Shown here one piece after another: positions 2,313-23,708 of a stretch of DNA of 37,859 nt. The position numbers were made by a program, and so were the translations under genes. Each line of letters begins with the position of its first letter. Position 1 is the first letter of the stretch. The DNA lies in assembly GCA_019894875.1 (NCBI GenBank), contig JAGXNR010000022.1, forward strand, positions 1 to 37,859. The letters run 5' to 3'. This DNA is from Promethearchaeota archaeon (GTDB taxonomy: Archaea > Asgardarchaeota > Lokiarchaeia > Sigynarchaeales > SOKP01). The notes beneath the pieces were generated by a model that was not told the DNA's origin, ran no database searches, and saw only the letters and a list, made by a program, of their open reading frames with translations.

Positions 2313-3566
2313 ATGCTTGATATAAATCCATTTGAAAGTGTTAAAAAAAAACTTGATATTGTTGCAGATTTAATAAATTTAAGCCCAAATACTTTAAAAT
2401 ATCTGAAAAAGATCGAACGAGCATTAATAGTTTCCATTCCTATCCTTATGGATGACGACTCTCTTAAAATATTCGAGGGATTCAGGGTTCATCATTCAAC
2501 TTTAAGAGGTCCAGCAAAAGGAGGTATAAGATATTCACCTGATGTCACACTTGATGAAATAAAGGCTTTAGCGTTTTTAATGACATTTAAGACAAGTCTT
2601 CTAAACTTACCTTTGGGAGGATCTAAGGGAGGAGTAACTGTGGATACTAAAGAATTGTCAAAGAAAGAATTAGAAAGATTAACTAGGAGATACACAGCTG
2701 AAATTATAAATATGATTGGACCCGATATAGATATTCCCGCACCAGATATGTATACAGATTCGACGACAATGGCTTGGATCATGGACACATATAGTATGCA
2801 GAAAGGTCGAACTATTCCTGGTGTAGTAACTGGTAAACCAATTGAAATAGGGGGTTCTGTAGGGAGACTTGAAGCTACTGGGACGGGAATGGCTTATCAA
2901 CTTGAACATCTTTGCCAGAAATTAAATTATGATTTAAATAAAATGGATCTTGTAATTCAAGGATTTGGAAAAGTGGGATCAGTTGTTGCCAAGCAATTAT
3001 GTAACATTTCTTGTAACCTTATTGCAGTTTCTGAAAAAGAAGGAGGATTATATTCACCAGACGGTTTAGATATTAATGAAATATTAAAATGGAGGCAACA
3101 AGGGAATTTATTAAAAGATTACGAAGGAAAAAATATTACTACAATAACTAACGATGAATTACTTAGTACAAAATGCGATATTTTGATACCCGCTGCTATA
3201 GAGAATCAGATATATAGTAAGAATGCAGATCGAATAGATTGCAGTATTATATTAGAAGGTGCAAACGGTCCTACAACTTCTCAGGCTGATGCTATCTTAG
3301 ATGAGAAAGGAATAATTGTTGTCCCAGATATTCTTGCAAATAGTGGTGGGGTATGTGTTTCATATTTTGAATATATTCAAGATATTCAAAGCTATTTCTG
3401 GGGAATAGATCGTGTTAATCGAGAAATGAAAAATATTCTTATTAAAACTTTTGAAGATGTCTATAAATTTTCAAAGGAAAGGGATGTATCACTTAGAGCT
3501 GCCGCATTTGCTATTAGTGGAAGGAGATTAGCGAAAGCTCACGAATTAAGAGGTTTATTTCCATAA
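2313..3566 (+). CDS. Glutamate dehydrogenase family protein, copy 2 (diverged paralogue)
   Basis: This is a second Glu/Leu/Phe/Val dehydrogenase, 417 residues. It keeps the catalytic set (K69, K93, K105, D145) and a Rossmann motif GFGKVG at 217-222. It lacks the roughly 20-residue N-terminal extension of copy 1, and the sequence around the pocket has changed: GGSKGG replaces GGAKGG, and GGSVGRLEATG replaces [13 protein letters not shown]. The ATG has no Shine-Dalgarno sequence, unlike copy 1, so the two genes are probably expressed differently. The gap of 268 AT-rich bases argues against tight co-translation. Different coenzyme use, a different amino-acid substrate, or a hetero-oligomer with copy 1 are all possible. 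Confidence 0.9.
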   Translation: MLDINPFESVKKKLDIVADLINLSPNTLKYLKKIERALIVSIPILMDDDSLKIFEGFRVHHSTLRGPAKGGIRYSPDVTLDEIKALAFLMTFKTSLLNLPLGGSKGGVTVDTKELSKKELERLTRRYTAEIINMIGPDIDIPAPDMYTDSTTMAWIMDTYSMQKGRTIPGVVTGKPIEIGGSVGRLEATGTGMAYQLEHLCQKLNYDLNKMDLVIQGFGKVGSVVAKQLCNISCNLIAVSEKEGGLYSPDGLDINEILKWRQQGNLLKDYEGKNITTITNDELLSTKCDILIPAAIENQIYSKNADRIDCSIILEGANGPTTSQADAILDEKGIIVVPDILANSGGVCVSYFEYIQDIQSYFWGIDRVNREMKNILIKTFEDVYKFSKERDVSLRAAAFAISGRRLAKAHELRGLFP

Positions 3567-7152: not shown

Positions 7153-7419
7153 TTACTTCTTTTTCTTAAAAAAATCTGGAATAATCCCATCAAGCCCAAG
7201 ACTTTTTAAGACAGTTTCTCGTATATTCATCTGAATCGTTAAATCTGACATCGTTCTCATGGTTGCATCCAATGATTTACTCATTCCTTTTATAGTTTCA
7301 GAAGTCTGGGTTAAAGAATCACGAATTGTGATATTAATCTCATGCAATTCTTTTGTTAATCTATCCATACTAGTTCTCAGTTCAGAAAGTTCCTTTTTAA
7401 ATTCTTTGAGGCCCGCCAT
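7153..7419 (-). CDS. Small coiled-coil protein
   Basis: The protein has 88 residues, almost all predicted helical. Heptad-like spacing of leucine, isoleucine and methionine runs through residues 5-70, and the tail is basic (FFKKKK). No transmembrane segment or enzyme motif is present. It is the last gene of a minus-strand group that begins with the two small membrane proteins at 8212 and 7957, so it may partner with them as a cytoplasmic or membrane-peripheral component. Start is the ATG at 7419; function unknown. Confidence 0.7.
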   Translation of the reverse strand: MAGLKEFKKELSELRTSMDRLTKELHEINITIRDSLTQTSETIKGMSKSLDATMRTMSDLTIQMNIRETVLKSLGLDGIIPDFFKKKK

Positions 7420-8212: not shown

Positions 8213-8360
8213 ATTATTTCAACCAATTTTTTTAAATTTTAAATAAAAGTAGGATTATGGTTATAAAAATTTATTTAAATCAAGATATCACATGAATTTA
8301 GTTTACGCTGAAATTTCTTTATTTTTATTATCATAAATGTAATATATTAGTTCTTATATC

Positions 8361-8370
8361 TATTATATAA
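8361..8370 (+). promoter_or_regulatory. TATA box before the first TGA-containing small ORF
   Basis: TATTATATAA lies 20-29 bases before the ATG at 8390. An archaeal transcript would therefore start at or very near that ATG, which fits the lack of a Shine-Dalgarno sequence and suggests a leaderless message. Confidence 0.45.
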
Positions 8371-8389
8371 TTAAAAACCATTATCAAAT

Positions 8390-8566
8390 ATGATTCAAAT
8401 GTCTGAATGGAAATATAGAATTAATAGCTTTTCGATAAATAACGACTGTTATCAATCTGGATGAAGAACGGTAGATGACCTCATAAATAGTATTAAAAAA
8501 ATGAAATTAAAACGACAACAAAAACAATTAAAAAAAAAATTAAAACAGAAAAATCTCAAAGATTAG
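8390..8566 (+). CDS. Candidate micro-selenoprotein A (in-frame TGA at codon 25)
   Basis: Reading from ATG 8390 to TAG 8564-8566 gives 58 codons if the TGA at 8462-8464 is decoded. An in-frame ATG at 8399 is an alternative start. The region before the TGA ends in DCYQSG, placing a cysteine (codon 20) five positions before it: C-x4-TGA. After it comes TVDDLINSIKKMKLKR and a lysine/glutamine-rich helical tail. The second small ORF 214 bases downstream has the same architecture: CY-x3-TGA, then an aspartate four positions after the TGA and a basic helix. Both are followed by similar structured sequences. The most economical reading is selenocysteine at the TGA, forming a Cys/Sec redox or metal site. 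That is inference. If TGA is a true stop, the product would be a 24-residue peptide. Confidence 0.5.
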
Positions 8567-8632
8567 ATCGAAAAATGATAGGGTCTAACCTTAAGAATTC
8601 CGCAAAGAATTCGAGAAATAATACATAATCTT
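8559..8632 (+). ncRNA. SECIS-like structured 3' element A
   Basis: This element overlaps the end of small ORF A and is closed by AAGATTA (8559-8565) with TAATCTT (8626-8632). Its core hairpin is GAATTC (8595-8600), loop CGCAAA, GAATTC (8607-8612), flanked by AA on the 5' side and GAGA on the 3' side. The 30 bases leading into the hairpin (8566-8595) match 21 of 30 positions in the element after ORF B (8930-8959). The stem sequences differ between the two elements while pairing is kept, which suggests a conserved RNA fold. Archaeal and lokiarchaeal SECIS elements lie in the 3' UTR and depend on such stems with A/G-rich internal loops. Identity as SECIS is inferred. Confidence 0.5.
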
Positions 8633-8779
8633 AATCCACTTTTAATTAAAAAACTATATATTACTTCTTCTTTATAAAAAATTAACCCCTTGACTTACTT
8701 TTTTATCTTTTATAATCCTCATTCTTTTTACCCCTAATTACTTCTGTTAAATAAAGAATTAAGCAGGTGAATCAAAATA

Positions 8780-8911
8780 ATGGAAGAAGAAGATTTTCTA
8801 GATATCGATTTTGATGATGGTTGTTATTCTACAACTTGATCTTTGATTGATATGTGGTATACTAGAGCAAAAAAATTACGAAAATTACATGAAACTCATA
8901 AAAAAGAATAA
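8780..8911 (+). CDS. Candidate micro-selenoprotein B (in-frame TGA at codon 20)
   Basis: The ATG at 8780 has a strong Shine-Dalgarno AGGTGA at 8765-8770, nine bases upstream, so translation here is well supported. The frame reads to TAA 8909-8911 and gives 43 codons if TGA 8837-8839 is decoded. The N-terminus is acidic (MEEEDFLDIDFDDG), then CYSTT, the TGA, and a basic helix (SLIDMWYTRAKKLRKLHE). The cysteine at codon 15 and the TGA at codon 20 form the same C-x4-TGA spacing as in ORF A, and both have aspartate four codons after the TGA. I know of no described family with this layout. Without recoding the product would be 19 residues. Confidence 0.55.
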
Positions 8912-8914
8912 ATA

Positions 8915-8996
8915 AATCTCAAGAATTTAAATCGAAAAAAACGAGGATTTAACTTCAAGTTCCGCAAGAACGAGAGATTAGAAGTCTAAATTTTTT
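8915..8996 (+). ncRNA. SECIS-like structured 3' element B
   Basis: This element starts three bases after the TAA of ORF B. It can fold as nested stems: AATTTA (8924-8929) with TAAATT (8987-8992), ACTTC (8952-8956) with GAAGT (8981-8985), and a core hairpin GTTC (8959-8962), loop CGCAA, GAAC (8968-8971). AA precedes the core and GAGA follows it, exactly as in element A. An alternative pairing is AATCTC (8915-8920) with GAGATT (8974-8979). A run of six T at 8991-8996 could end the transcript. The shared loop, flanks and compensated stem with element A support a functional RNA. Its role in selenocysteine insertion is inferred from position. Confidence 0.5.
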
Positions 8997-9004
8997 CCTA
9001 TACC

Positions 9005-10363
9005 TTAATTTTGATGATTTGAACCTTCTCCTATCTTTCTATAGATAAATCCTTTACCCTCTACAACTTTTTTATCAAAAATATTCCGACCATCGATTAT
9101 TATTGGCTGATCTTTCATATTCTCCTTTAATTCGCCAAGATCAATTGAATAGTATTGTTTATGGTTTGTAGCAAATATCAGAACATCAGCATCCTTTGCT
9201 GCTTTTTTAAAATCAGAAGTTAATTCTGTTTCTTTATAATCCCTTTCTTTGACATATGGATCATGAGCAATATATTCCAAATTATGAGAGTGATACCGGC
9301 GTTTTAAAAAGAGAACAATTCTCTCTGTAGGAGTATTTCGAGTATCATCACAATCCGCTTTATATGCAACCCCCATTAAAGCTATCTTTAAATTATCATA
9401 TTTTTCAGCAACTTTAAGAGCTTCTTCCAACAATTCAACCAAATGCTCGGGCATGAAGTCGTTAAGTTGCCTTGATTTTAATAAGATTTCCGAATCGTAT
9501 TTATTTTTAGTATAAGTACGATGCCCATATACAAGGAGATGTGGATCCTTTGTTAAACAGTGCCCACCAACACCAGAACCCGGAGAATGCATCATTCTAT
9601 CATGTCTGTGATTTATTAATTCAACTATTTCAAAAATATTCCTATTGAAATCCTCCACAACCAACGCCATCTCATTGGCAAATGCGATATTCACATCTCG
9701 ATATGTATTTTCTATACACTTGGTTAATTCTGCTGTTAAAGTGTCTGTTACTTGGAGTTCCTTTTTAACTACTTTACTATACAAAAACTTAGTGTTTTCA
9801 TTAGCCCTATCACATCCTCCTCCAATAACTCTAGGAAAGTCTGTGATATATTCAATTAATTTTCCAGGCATCACTCGTTCAAATGAAAATACTAAGTAAA
9901 AATCTTCACCTCTTTTCATCTTACTATGTTTTTCTAAGATTGGCGAAACTATGTTATCTGTTGTCCCAGGGGCTACTGTCGATTCTATAATAACTGTGGA
10001 TCCTTTTTTCAAATGTGGGGCTAATCTTTTTGATACTTCCTTTAATGATTCATAACGTGGAATTCTTTTTTCATCAACAGGAGTCTGAACATCCACTAAA
10101 ATATAATCTGCGTCATCAATCACGTTATACTTATCTGTAACTTTAAATTTTCCGTTCTCCACAACACGAGCAATCAAATCATCTAAACCAGGTTCAACTC
10201 CCTCAAACGGATTCTTTCCATTATTTAACCAATCTATTTTCCATTCTGAGCGTTTCGATCGTCTCTGAATACCAGTGACATAAAAATCATCTACATCAGC
10301 AAGTAATACAGCCATTGGAATCCCAACATAGCCCATTCCAATTACAACTATTTTAACCGTCAT
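9005..10363 (-). CDS. UDP-glucose/UDP-ManNAc-type nucleotide-sugar dehydrogenase
   Basis: The enzyme oxidises a UDP-hexose at C6 to the uronic acid with two NAD+ per turn, supplying acidic sugars for surface glycans. It has 452 residues, as usual for the family. The N-terminal NAD-binding motif is VVIGMGYVG (residues 6-14). The catalytic cysteine is C269 within SGVGGHCL, with the conserved lysine K215 in the helix before it. The C-terminal UDP-binding domain has GVAYKADCDDTRNTP. The details fit the WecC/UDP-N-acetylmannosaminuronate branch at least as well as UDP-glucose dehydrogenase, and the substrate cannot be settled here. No glycosyltransferase or epimerase lies next to it, so it is not inside a polysaccharide cluster in this window. 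Confidence 0.9.
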   Translation of the reverse strand: MTVKIVVIGMGYVGIPMAVLLADVDDFYVTGIQRRSKRSEWKIDWLNNGKNPFEGVEPGLDDLIARVVENGKFKVTDKYNVIDDADYILVDVQTPVDEKRIPRYESLKEVSKRLAPHLKKGSTVIIESTVAPGTTDNIVSPILEKHSKMKRGEDFYLVFSFERVMPGKLIEYITDFPRVIGGGCDRANENTKFLYSKVVKKELQVTDTLTAELTKCIENTYRDVNIAFANEMALVVEDFNRNIFEIVELINHRHDRMMHSPGSGVGGHCLTKDPHLLVYGHRTYTKNKYDSEILLKSRQLNDFMPEHLVELLEEALKVAEKYDNLKIALMGVAYKADCDDTRNTPTERIVLFLKRRYHSHNLEYIAHDPYVKERDYKETELTSDFKKAAKDADVLIFATNHKQYYSIDLGELKENMKDQPIIIDGRNIFDKKVVEGKGFIYRKIGEGSNHQN

Positions 10364-20640: not shown

Positions 20641-21744
20641 ATGCCAGAAAAAATTGTCTATGTTGATGCAAAAACTCTTGAGAATTTTATGAGGGATATC
20701 TTCATTGGACTTGGTGTGCCAAAAGAAGATGCAAATATTATTGCTGAGGTTCTAATTACATCTGATTTACGAGGGATTGAATCCCATGGTATTCAACGCT
20801 GTAAAATGTACTATGATCGGATTAGGGCTGGTATTTATGAAGTGCATACGAAGATTGATACCATTAAAGAAACACCAACTACAGCATTATTGGATGGTAA
20901 CTGTGGAATGGGGCATGTTATTGCATATAAAGCAATGAAATTAGCCATTGAAAAAGCAAAAGAGTATGGTTTAGGTGCAGTCGCTGTAAGAAACTCCACG
21001 CATTTTGGAATCGCAGGGTATTATAGCTTAATGGCAATTAAAGAAGGAATGATTGGTTTAGCAGTAACAAATGCTAGACCTTCTATCCCTCCCACTTTCG
21101 GAGTTGAACCCATGTTAGGCACTAACCCATTAACAATAGGAGCACCTACGAATGAGGCATTTCCTTTCCTCCTAGATGCTGCCACCTCAATTATTCAGAG
21201 GGGTAAAGTAGAGGTATATGAGAGGATTGATAAAAAACTTCCGGAAAATACTGTTATTAACGATAAAGGTGAATTTCTTACTGATGCGGGAGAGGTGTTA
21301 CAAAAAATGGGTGAAAAAAAGGCAGCTTTACTCCCTTTAGGGGGCAAGGGCGAGGAAACTGCCGGTTATAAAGGATATGGATATGCTACTGTGGTTGAAT
21401 TATTATCCTCAGCTTTACAAGAAGGAATCTATTTAAGAGATACTATTGGTATTGAAGAGGATGGACAGAAGAGATTAAAAGTCGGGCATTTCTTTTTAGC
21501 AATTAATACTGAAAGTTTCATAGGTATTGATAGCTTTAAAAGAACAGCAGGAGATATTATGAAAGATCTTAGAAATTCACCAAAAGAACCAGGAGCAAAA
21601 AGAATTTATACTGCTGGAGAAAAAGAGCATTTGGCATATTTAGAAAGAATAAAAATAGGTATCCCCCTTAACAAAAGTTTACAAGATGATATTAAGGAGA
21701 TGCAAAGAGCTCTGAATTTGAACGGTTATAATTTTCAATTTTAA
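20641..21744 (+). CDS. Malate/L-lactate dehydrogenase family oxidoreductase (Ldh2 type), copy 1
   Basis: This 367-residue member of the Ldh2/MDH2 family uses NAD(P) to reduce 2-oxoacids such as malate, lactate, sulfolactate or ureidoglycolate, with a fold unrelated to classical lactate dehydrogenase. Family marks include SDLRGIESHGIQR near residue 40, VRNSTHFGIAGYY (catalytic histidine), GVEPMLGTNPL, DAATSIIQRGKVE and GYKGYGYATVVELL. The second copy 0.8 kb downstream is closely similar at both protein and DNA level. Between them lies a broken flavodoxin gene. The substrate cannot be assigned. Confidence 0.9.
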   Translation: MPEKIVYVDAKTLENFMRDIFIGLGVPKEDANIIAEVLITSDLRGIESHGIQRCKMYYDRIRAGIYEVHTKIDTIKETPTTALLDGNCGMGHVIAYKAMKLAIEKAKEYGLGAVAVRNSTHFGIAGYYSLMAIKEGMIGLAVTNARPSIPPTFGVEPMLGTNPLTIGAPTNEAFPFLLDAATSIIQRGKVEVYERIDKKLPENTVINDKGEFLTDAGEVLQKMGEKKAALLPLGGKGEETAGYKGYGYATVVELLSSALQEGIYLRDTIGIEEDGQKRLKVGHFFLAINTESFIGIDSFKRTAGDIMKDLRNSPKEPGAKRIYTAGEKEHLAYLERIKIGIPLNKSLQDDIKEMQRALNLNGYNFQF

Positions 21745-21838: not shown

Positions 21839-22390
21839 ATGATGAAAATTTTAGTAGCTTATTTCAGCCAAACAGGTAAAACTGAGGCAATAGCACGAGC
21901 TATCCATGAAGAGGTTTCCTAAAATCATGAATCTGATATATTGACGATGAAGCAGACTAAAAAAATAGACTTTAATGAGTTTGATTTAATTTTTCTAGGA
22001 GCACCATGTCACGATACAGATTTAGCAAAACCACTTATTAGAATTTTAAGAAAATTGCCAGAGTCTCCTAAATTTAAGATCGCTGGATTCTTTACTCACT
22101 CAACTACTCCGCCAGAAGGAAATACTAAAAATAAAAGCCTTTATGATGATTGGGCGGGAAATTGTAGTAAATCCTTTGAAAAGATGAAGCAGGAGAAAAA
22201 TGCGGAATTTCTTGGTTTCTTTCGTTGTCAAAGAGCACCTTCTCCCGGAATTGAAACATTTATTCATCAAACGATAATAAAATATGAGGATGAGTGGCAA
22301 GATTATATTAAAGGAACCAAAAATCACCCTGATCAAAATGACTTAGAAAATGCAAAGAAATTTGCTGCAGAAATTCTTCAGCAATGTTAA
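21839..22390 (+). pseudogene. Flavodoxin-like protein gene interrupted by an in-frame TAA
   Basis: Translation from ATG 21839 (preceded by AAAGGT) gives an excellent flavodoxin beginning, MMKILVAYFSQTGKTEAIAR, whose SQTGKT is the FMN phosphate-binding loop. Codon 28 is TAA (21920-21922). The same frame then continues without another stop to 22390, with LIFLGAPCHDTDLAKPL and a conserved-looking C-terminal half. One changed base would restore about 183 residues. It may be a recent pseudogene, a sequencing error or a strain-specific nonsense mutation. TAA is not known to be recoded in archaea, so it is not comparable with the TGA-containing ORFs. An ATG at 21941 could give only a fragment lacking the FMN loop. 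Confidence 0.8.
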
Positions 22391-22568: not shown

Positions 22569-23708
22569 ATGGTAGAAAACACACTTGAAGAAACAATAAA
22601 TTCTTCTTCAGACGATATTGTCTATATAGAATTCGAAATTCTTAAGCAATTTATGAAAGATGTATTTATTGGTCTTGAAGTTCCGGAAGATCATGCTGAA
22701 CTTATAGCAGACGTTCTTATTATTTCTGATCTCAGAGGAATAGATTCTCATGGTATTCAACGCTGTAAAATGTACTATGATCGGATTAAAGAAGGAATCT
22801 ATAACCCACAAACCGAAATAGATATAATAAACGACAATAATGCTACTGCTGTGATTGATGGACACTGTGGTATGGGACACGTAATTGCCTATAAAGCAAT
22901 GGAGTTAGCAATTAAAAAGGCTAAAATTTATGGTATTGGCGCTGTGGCAGTACGAAATAGTTCCCACTTTGGAATCGCAGGTTACTACAGTCTTATGGCA
23001 ATTAAAGAAGGGATGATAGGTTTTGTTACTACAAATACACGACCTTCTGTCCCTCCTACATTTGGGGTAGAACCAATGTTAGGAACTAATCCATTAACAT
23101 ATGGTGCTCCTACCGATGAGGAATTTCCATTCCTTATGGATGCGGCAACTTCGATCATACAGAGAGGCAAAGTTGAGGTCTACAACCGAATTCATAAGCC
23201 ATTACCTGATGGATTAATTATTTCTAATAATGGTAATTCAAAAACTGATCCCGAAGTGGTCTTAAATAAATTACTCAATCGCTCTGCGGCATTATTACCC
23301 TTAGGTGGTGAAGGTGAAGCTACTTCAGGACATAAAGGATATGGTTATGCAACTTTCGCAGAGATTTTATCGGCAGCACTGCAAGATGGAATTTTTCTAA
23401 AGGATACTGCAGGTGTTATTGAAAATGGGCAGAAAAGATTAAAGGTCGGACACTTCTTTTTAGCCATTAATATAAGTAATTTTCTACCTTTAGCTCGATT
23501 TCAAGAAACTACAGGCAATATAATGAGGGAATTAAGAAGCTCTAAAACTGCCCCAGGTAAGGACAGGATCTATACCGCAGGAGAGAAGGAATACGATGCT
23601 GAAATCGAGAGAAAACAGACAGGAATTCCTATTAATAAGAGTTTACAAAAAGATATTAAAATTATGAAAGAAGAACTTGGATTAAATAAGTATAATTTTT
23701 CTTTCTAG
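22569..23708 (+). CDS. Malate/L-lactate dehydrogenase family oxidoreductase (Ldh2 type), copy 2
   Basis: This is the second Ldh2-type enzyme, 379 residues, 12 longer at its N-terminus (an acidic, serine-rich start MVENTLEETINSSSDD). All family motifs of copy 1 recur (SDLRGIDSHGIQR, VRNSSHFGIAGYY, GVEPMLGTNPL, GHKGYGYATFAEIL). A 40-base stretch (22749-22788) is identical in DNA to copy 1 (20785-20824), which points to recent duplication or gene conversion. Differences cluster near residues 215-240 and in the last third, which may change specificity or oligomer contacts. It converges closely on the CDF transporter gene. Confidence 0.9.
   Translation: MVENTLEETINSSSDDIVYIEFEILKQFMKDVFIGLEVPEDHAELIADVLIISDLRGIDSHGIQRCKMYYDRIKEGIYNPQTEIDIINDNNATAVIDGHCGMGHVIAYKAMELAIKKAKIYGIGAVAVRNSSHFGIAGYYSLMAIKEGMIGFVTTNTRPSVPPTFGVEPMLGTNPLTYGAPTDEEFPFLMDAATSIIQRGKVEVYNRIHKPLPDGLIISNNGNSKTDPEVVLNKLLNRSAALLPLGGEGEATSGHKGYGYATFAEILSAALQDGIFLKDTAGVIENGQKRLKVGHFFLAINISNFLPLARFQETTGNIMRELRSSKTAPGKDRIYTAGEKEYDAEIERKQTGIPINKSLQKDIKIMKEELGLNKYNFSF

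Follow-up and report, generated by a model that had tools for sequence, protein, structure and literature searches.

Eleven archaeal selenoprotein families have been counted (PMC13188914), and Prx-like is among the accepted selenoproteins of Asgard archaea (PMC11227280). Two kinds of element described downstream of such genes are the eSECIS-like element of Asgard FrhD and SelD genes, with an AUGA_GA quartet, and the euryarchaeal eaSECIS, with a GAA_A bulge between two stems. Among the proteins themselves, FrhD/MvhD and HdrA carry a CxxU motif (Table 1 of PMC13188914), and the available text of the same paper describes UxxC and CxxU motifs as redox-related. The main Asgard survey, according to its accessible text, searched by homology to known families (PMC11227280). 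Surveys of this kind cannot find tiny Sec proteins of an unfamiliar kind.

The window, i.e. the whole stretch of 37,859 nucleotides that was analysed (contig JAGXNR010000022.1, a Promethearchaeota archaeon of the Lokiarchaeia), contains two small ORFs, A and B, each with one in-frame TGA, which an earlier note on this DNA had proposed as a candidate new selenoprotein family. Comparison of sequences makes it very probable, in our judgement, that A and B represent two small selenoprotein families of the Lokiarchaeia, whose UGA would be read as Sec and whose SECIS would be a three-way-junction RNA. The strongest feature of the locus, on which the earlier note is silent, is the presence of the same folded RNA element behind each ORF. 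The features are as follows.

8399..8566, + strand: ORF A, 55 residues with UGA taken as Sec (MSEWK...CYQSGU...), TAG stop at 8564-8566.
8462..8464, + strand: in-frame UGA of A, the proposed Sec codon; all 31 non-redundant A genes have TGA here, as do all 45 genomes with a genuine A match.
8552..8618, + strand: three-way-junction RNA of A, the proposed SECIS, from fold and covariation; it reaches back into the end of ORF A, and model R1 scores it at 66.3 bits (a training sequence).
8765..8770, + strand: AGGTGA, a Shine-Dalgarno-like sequence ahead of B, read from the sequence.
8780..8911, + strand: ORF B, 43 residues with UGA taken as Sec (MEEEDFLDIDFDDGCYSTTUSLIDMWY...), TAA stop.
8837..8839, + strand: in-frame UGA of B, the proposed Sec codon; 28 of the 29 non-redundant B genes have TGA here and the other has TGT (Cys).
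8915..8979, + strand: three-way-junction RNA of B, the proposed SECIS, from fold and covariation; 63.1 bits with model R1 (a training sequence).
9005..10363, - strand: nucleotide-sugar dehydrogenase, a frequent convergent neighbour of B (TIGR03026, 358.8 bits).
7153..7419, - strand: 88-aa coiled-coil-like protein, a frequent neighbour on the other side; its family matches are all below cut-off.

Both ORFs and both TGAs (8462-8464 and 8837-8839) were found in the sequence as the earlier note had described them, together with the Cys five positions ahead of the TGA and the Asp four codons past it in each ORF, and AGGTGA at 8765-8770 ahead of the ATG at 8780. The start of ORF A had been placed at 8390, but the second ATG at 8399 is the more likely one, since the aligned A relatives begin with MS[EG]WK or MS[DE]WK.

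Relatives of B were found through the neighbouring gene. The dehydrogenase of the window matched 12 Lokiarchaeal loci at 72-80% identity, and near it in seven of the 12 there was a B-like ORF whose TGA is identically placed and followed by shared sequence. A profile built from eight B proteins and the A of the window (A2) was then searched in 227 Asgard genomes. As a result, 34 matches in 27 genomes were obtained, of which 29 were B genes (28 with one TGA and one, coding Cys, with none) and five were A genes, as the profile had included the A of the window. With a profile of 15 A proteins, matches were obtained in 46 of the 227 genomes. Forty-five are true and all of these have the TGA; three are weak (E 6e-5 to 5e-4), and CTGU and the element are present there on inspection. 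The 46th, in a 575-aa frame of G190 (E 6e-4), was rejected as spurious. One more A gene (G105) was found through the RNA element search. Homologues with sequence conserved past the TGA, which the earlier note had called for, do exist: among the 227 genomes, 27 have B (29 genes) and 45 have A. Relatives of both ORFs occur in Lokiarchaeia, and the pattern of TGA across them is, as read from the alignments, far beyond chance. Gene counts given as non-redundant refer to rows de-duplicated on the 120 nt past the TGA.

The typical A protein is 45-58 residues long and reads MSEWKNKL...CTGU-GIIDGII.CI..IKK.R.KK. Cys is found at position -3 in 24 of the 31 non-redundant A genes; some others have this Cys together with an insertion, and it is missing at this position in the subgroup of the window. 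The typical B protein reads ..DDDCYxTSU-x[ML][LI]xMWYxRAxKLRK; in all 28 Sec-coding genes, positions +6 and +7 are W and Y. The C-x4-TGA motif proposed as common to the pair does occur in both ORFs of the window and is typical of B, but most A proteins have CTGU (C-x2-U). Judged from sequence, the A of the window is a divergent member of its family, and A and B are two families, so that the selenoprotein reading of the earlier note stands while its single family does not. The two may be distant paralogues. An hhalign comparison gave 91.1%, a value inflated by W or C at the UGA column; with X at that column it gave 77.8% (E 1.9e-5) with the UGA columns in register, which for paralogy is only suggestive. 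In G130, a single-contig genome, three B genes and two A elements are present (L057, L068 and L157), and the pair has therefore been duplicated.

We found no match of A or B to a described family in the sources covered. Pfam gave matches below cut-off for A and none for B, and NCBIfam gave none for either. There is no family like them among the seven Asgard selenoprotein families in the accessible text of PMC11227280 or in the passages covered of Table 1 of PMC13188914. Neither such a family nor a SECIS lacking the quartet appears in the passages covered of PMC11227280, PMC13188914 and PMC9723677. FrhD/MvhD and HdrA resemble A in the CxxU motif, which most A proteins have as CTGU, but they share no family with A or B, A has 45-58 residues and B has C-x4-U.

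Conservation of the codon and of the sequence around it was examined. TGA stands at the site in all 31 non-redundant A genes and in 28 of 29 B genes, the 29th having TGT for Cys. Over the 14 codons past the UGA, among codon pairs with a single difference, the synonymous fraction was 0.546 in frame against 0.21 and 0.09 in the other frames for B (28 genes), and 0.545 against 0.17 and 0.09 for A (31 genes); the genes are related, and these pairs are not independent. Median Ka/Ks values were 0.20 ahead of the UGA and 0.43 past it for B, and 0.36 and 0.49 for A, with synonymous sites nearly saturated. A conserved in-frame UGA with coding conservation on both sides is thus found in both families. 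This bears on the proposal that the UGA is an ordinary stop ending leader or regulatory peptides of 21 to 24 codons, which a structured regulatory RNA would follow. Both ORFs are short and could serve as leaders, and the element might have a part in regulation or processing. However, conservation at the protein level continues in frame past the UGA, one genome has a Cys codon in its place, and A and B are convergent to the dehydrogenase rather than upstream of it. We regard an ordinary stop as extremely improbable and rejected it together with the leader-peptide reading, as the homologues keep both the TGA and the coding conservation beyond it.

Taking the selenoprotein reading further, we looked at forms of A and B with another residue at the site. 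The B gene of L054 (genome G125) has TGT for TGA and reads CYYTSC-SLINMWH, and one of the 24 B-type database proteins, P0046, which represents 24 sequences, is a Cys form like it. Cys forms are confined to B; none occurred among the 45 genome matches or the 29 database proteins of A. In the residue table the L054 B row is misaligned, its real UGA stop being taken as the Sec site, and this gene was left out of the pair counts, the codon statistics and the quartet scan.

A further alternative is that the UGA is read as another amino acid such as Trp, or is passed by programmed read-through stimulated by the RNA, with no part for selenium. Trp occupies the site in all 29 A-type database proteins and in all but one of the 24 B-type ones, and tRNA-Sec scores over cut-off in few genomes. 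The codon in the DNA, on the other hand, is TGA or, once, TGT, with no TGG among 31 A and 29 B genes; the Sec machinery, represented by SepSecS, is present in 46 of 47 carriers; and the Sec-containing Prx-like gene is followed by a related element. We consider this alternative very unlikely. The Trp in the databases probably stems from gene calls reading TGA as Trp (code 4), judged from the protein sequences. Metagenome protein databases carry these genes with Trp at the UGA in P0003-P0055 except P0046, and short Trp-bearing gene calls of this kind may reveal other small selenoproteins.

The earlier note had also asked for the Sec machinery, and three of its components do occur in the genomes of the relatives. 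SepSecS scored over cut-off in 130 of the 227 genomes, comprising 46 of 47 with A and/or B and 84 of 180 others, an association weaker than it looks owing to shared ancestry. In the remaining carrier, G008, a SepSecS fragment lies where a contig ends. SelD with TGA (SPS) was over cut-off in 10 of 12 genomes, and tRNA-Sec in two of 12 (G002 and G010) and in three of six (G129, G135 and G010), counting matches over cut-off alone, as weak ones also occur in control genomes. In G129, assembled as one 2.27-Mb contig, tRNA-Sec lies about 80 nt ahead of SepSecS. In G105 the SepSecS gene itself has a single in-frame TGA within the frame that was matched.

Behind both ORFs of the window the RNA can adopt the same fold, consisting of a closing stem P1 (UCUC/GAGA), a helix P2 with a 12-nt loop and a hairpin P3. 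Compared with shuffled sequences, the 81-nt stretches gave z scores of -2.76 (A) and -2.04 (B), and a 101-nt stretch of B gave an unremarkable -0.27. As this stability is modest, it is the comparison among relatives that carries the weight. A script that insisted on P1 plus two hairpins and gave preference to the loop motif placed the element behind 72 of 73 Sec-coding genes, with one of the 45 A genes and none of the 28 B genes going without. In the exception, the A gene of L064 has no element of its own and runs straight into B, which has one; its genome, G119, gave a single strong match to R1. The Cys-coding B gene of L054 has no element, whereas the A gene of the same locus keeps both UGA and element. 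P1 starts 80-93 nt after the UGA in 30 A genes and 77-89 nt after it in 28 B genes, the 14 A genes of L141-L154 being left out of this measurement. An NLKD/E-like protein tail in 15 of 31 A genes fits the overlap of element and ORF.

In a MAFFT alignment of the 72 elements (A4, with the end of L146 set by hand), 93.5% of the cells were paired. Changes on both sides of a pair were found in 145 cells, as against 39.5±7.4 in shuffled alignments (none of 500 reached this value), and in 12 of 18 pairs, a number reached by 8 of 500 shuffles. Slid versions of the pairing scored far lower. Such changes occurred in 10 of 10 pairs of P2, two of four of P3 and none of four of P1, which is nearly invariant. 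One P3 pair is broken in 26 of the 72 elements, at a place where one group is aligned out of register. No conserved bulge interrupts P2, which forms a continuous helix with 95.1% of its cells paired and canonical pairs at its three basal positions in 62, 69 and 67 of the 72 elements. With 10 counted pairs and 12 loop columns including an invariant AAA, it lies within the ranges that define an Asgard eSECIS-like element, namely 7-15 bp for the upper stem and 8-20 nt for an A-containing apical loop.

Model R1, derived from these elements, was searched in the 227 genomes at E 0.01 or better. The 84 matches consist of 75 above 51 bits and nine at 27.9-37.3 bits; the A and B elements themselves score about 51-81 bits. 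Seventy-three of the 75 strong matches lie behind readable A or B genes, and the other two are in G134, where the contig stops at the expected position of A, and in G130, behind a partly readable A gene. Although 70 of the 75 are training sequences, the five that are not also lie at A or B sites (A of G004, G105 and G134, the second A of G130, and B of G146). Among the nine weaker matches, the highest-scoring one falls in the 3' UTR of a G127 Prx-like gene; the remaining eight seemed chance-like on inspection. When eight genomes were searched more laxly, the sole match under E 0.01 outside A and B started just behind the stop of a Sec-containing Prx-like gene in G010 (INUPFCRWH). Rfam gave no match in the window at gathering score; at a low threshold, four weak matches appeared in 8300-9010, and neither element was hit on the + strand.

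The Prx-like genes were examined further. Relatives with TGA were present in nine of 26 genomes searched, and R1 matched the 3' UTR in four of the nine loci at 28.5-37.3 bits. Like that of A and B, the Prx-like element is a three-way junction with a P2 of about 11 bp and an A-rich loop, and it lacked the quartet in a scan of eight of the nine loci (0/8; L189-L196, L197 being left out as its motif was unmatched). Unlike it, the Prx-like element has GAUUUGG/CCAAAUC as P1 and a different P3, and scores 28.5-37.3 bits as against 51-81. In L189-L196, Prx-like genes thus appear to use a three-way-junction element without the quartet as well. Huang et al. (2024, PMC11227280, accessible text) classed prxL elements mainly as type I under the loose rule GA_[G/A]A, and may have accepted elements that are here called quartet-less.

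The FrhD and SelD elements resemble those of A and B in their position 3' of the gene, in stem length and in an A-rich apical loop. In these genomes too, FrhD genes that contain two TGAs are followed, as seen by eye, by P1, AUGA, P2, an A-rich loop (many ending in UAG), GA, a P3 hairpin and P1'; the loop reads AAAU..UAG, and the P3 hairpin and closing P1 are arranged as in A and B. SelD 3' regions look like those of FrhD, plus a ministem. A P3 hairpin ahead of the closing stem was seen by eye in the SECIS of both SelD (L022-L037) and FrhD (L121-L140), and the words hairpin and three-way are absent from the accessible text of PMC11227280. The quartet [AG]UGA_GA is present at the base of P2 in 16 of 20 FrhD loci, with doubtful register in L125 and L138. 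In contrast, the A and B elements lack it at the base of the upper stem; the scan, which used the unmended end of L146, found it in five of 72, each time out of register, the AUGA being part of the apical loop. R1 gave scores at chance level on 15 SelD and 20 FrhD loci. The euryarchaeal eaSECIS is likewise an archaeal 3' element, but P2 of A and B has no counterpart of its bulge. The element thus has the defining features of neither the AUGA_GA eSECIS nor the eaSECIS. It is best read as a variant SECIS with the topology and apical loop of FrhD but lacking the AUGA_GA quartet, a candidate that probably works like the Asgard SECIS and is related to it.

These comparisons also bear on the possibility that A and B are selenoproteins but the RNA is some other conserved 3' element, Sec being inserted by unrecognised means. 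The P2 base without the quartet, a P1 of invariant sequence unlike those of FrhD and SelD, and the failure of R1 to match the elements of either gene would be in keeping with this. Against it stand the fixed spacing of 77-93 nt from the UGA in 58 genes, the Cys form of B without an element, the related and equally quartet-less element (0/8) behind Prx-like Sec genes, and the apical loop and three-way topology shared, by eye, with FrhD. We consider it unlikely that the RNA is anything other than a SECIS.

If the RNA acts as SECIS, a ribosome translating A or B would meet the in-frame UGA, and the element, 77-93 nt downstream, would act through the Sec elongation factor to bring Sec-tRNA-Sec made by the PSTK-SepSecS route. 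The UGA would be read as Sec and translation would run on to the TAA or TAG. Support for this comes by computation from the conserved UGA, the coding conservation, the covarying element, the link to the Prx-like gene, the Cys form of B without an element and SepSecS in the carriers; Sec incorporation, factor binding and the function of A and B are inferred. Weighing against it are the lack of a Cys form of A, the W in databases, the few tRNA-Sec, the failure of R1 to match SelD and FrhD elements, the absence of both-side changes in P1, the unremarkable 101-nt fold of B and the large share of training sequences among the strong matches. Overall, with coding past the UGA, a Cys form of B, a covarying 3' element and SepSecS in 46 of 47 carriers, the selenoprotein reading of the earlier note is supported, and the computational checks that it had proposed gave no result of the kind it named as refuting. 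Gene and element fit in about 200 nt, which makes the proposal directly testable.

A broader proposal, to which we give slightly less than an even chance, is that Lokiarchaeia have two kinds of SECIS, one with the quartet (FrhD and SelD) and one three-way junction without it (Prx-like and two families of Sec peptides of ~43-58 residues). If so, the Asgard/eukaryote SECIS lineage would not have the quartet as its universal core, and there should be a factor that reads the invariant UCUC/GAGA stem together with the AAAUGNUAG loop. The peptides would then be minimal Sec redox units, with Sec on a lone basic helix and no thioredoxin fold. Two such families, whose SECIS would lack this supposed core, would add to the count of 11 for archaea (PMC13188914), and a quartet-less SECIS would bear on the origin of the eukaryotic one.

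AlphaFold2 modelled B as one helix (residues 13-42, mean pLDDT 85.8) and A as two (3-17 and 22-56, mean pLDDT 74.2), with CTGU at the start of the second. Because of the Cys/Sec motif, these helix models and the redox character described for UxxC and CxxU (available text of PMC13188914), we propose, at roughly even odds, that A and B are very small redox peptides of the Cys/Sec type, whose reactive Sec sits on a basic helix and which may work as a pair.

The dehydrogenase is present in 40 of the 51 stretches examined, 10 of these (the window and nine loci fetched via the dehydrogenase) by construction, and in two of the 40 it is a 28%-identical paralogue. It is not beside A or B in G129, nor beside the most distant A genes (L151-L154). 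We claim no functional link between it and A or B; the association is one of neighbourhood. Elsewhere in the window, the adjacent ORFs at 734-2044 and 2313-3566 resemble, from their translations, what we take to be paralogous glutamate-dehydrogenase-type enzymes, and two similar ORFs at 20641-21744 and 22569-23708, presumably malate/lactate-type dehydrogenases, stand on either side of a small ORF at 21941-22390.
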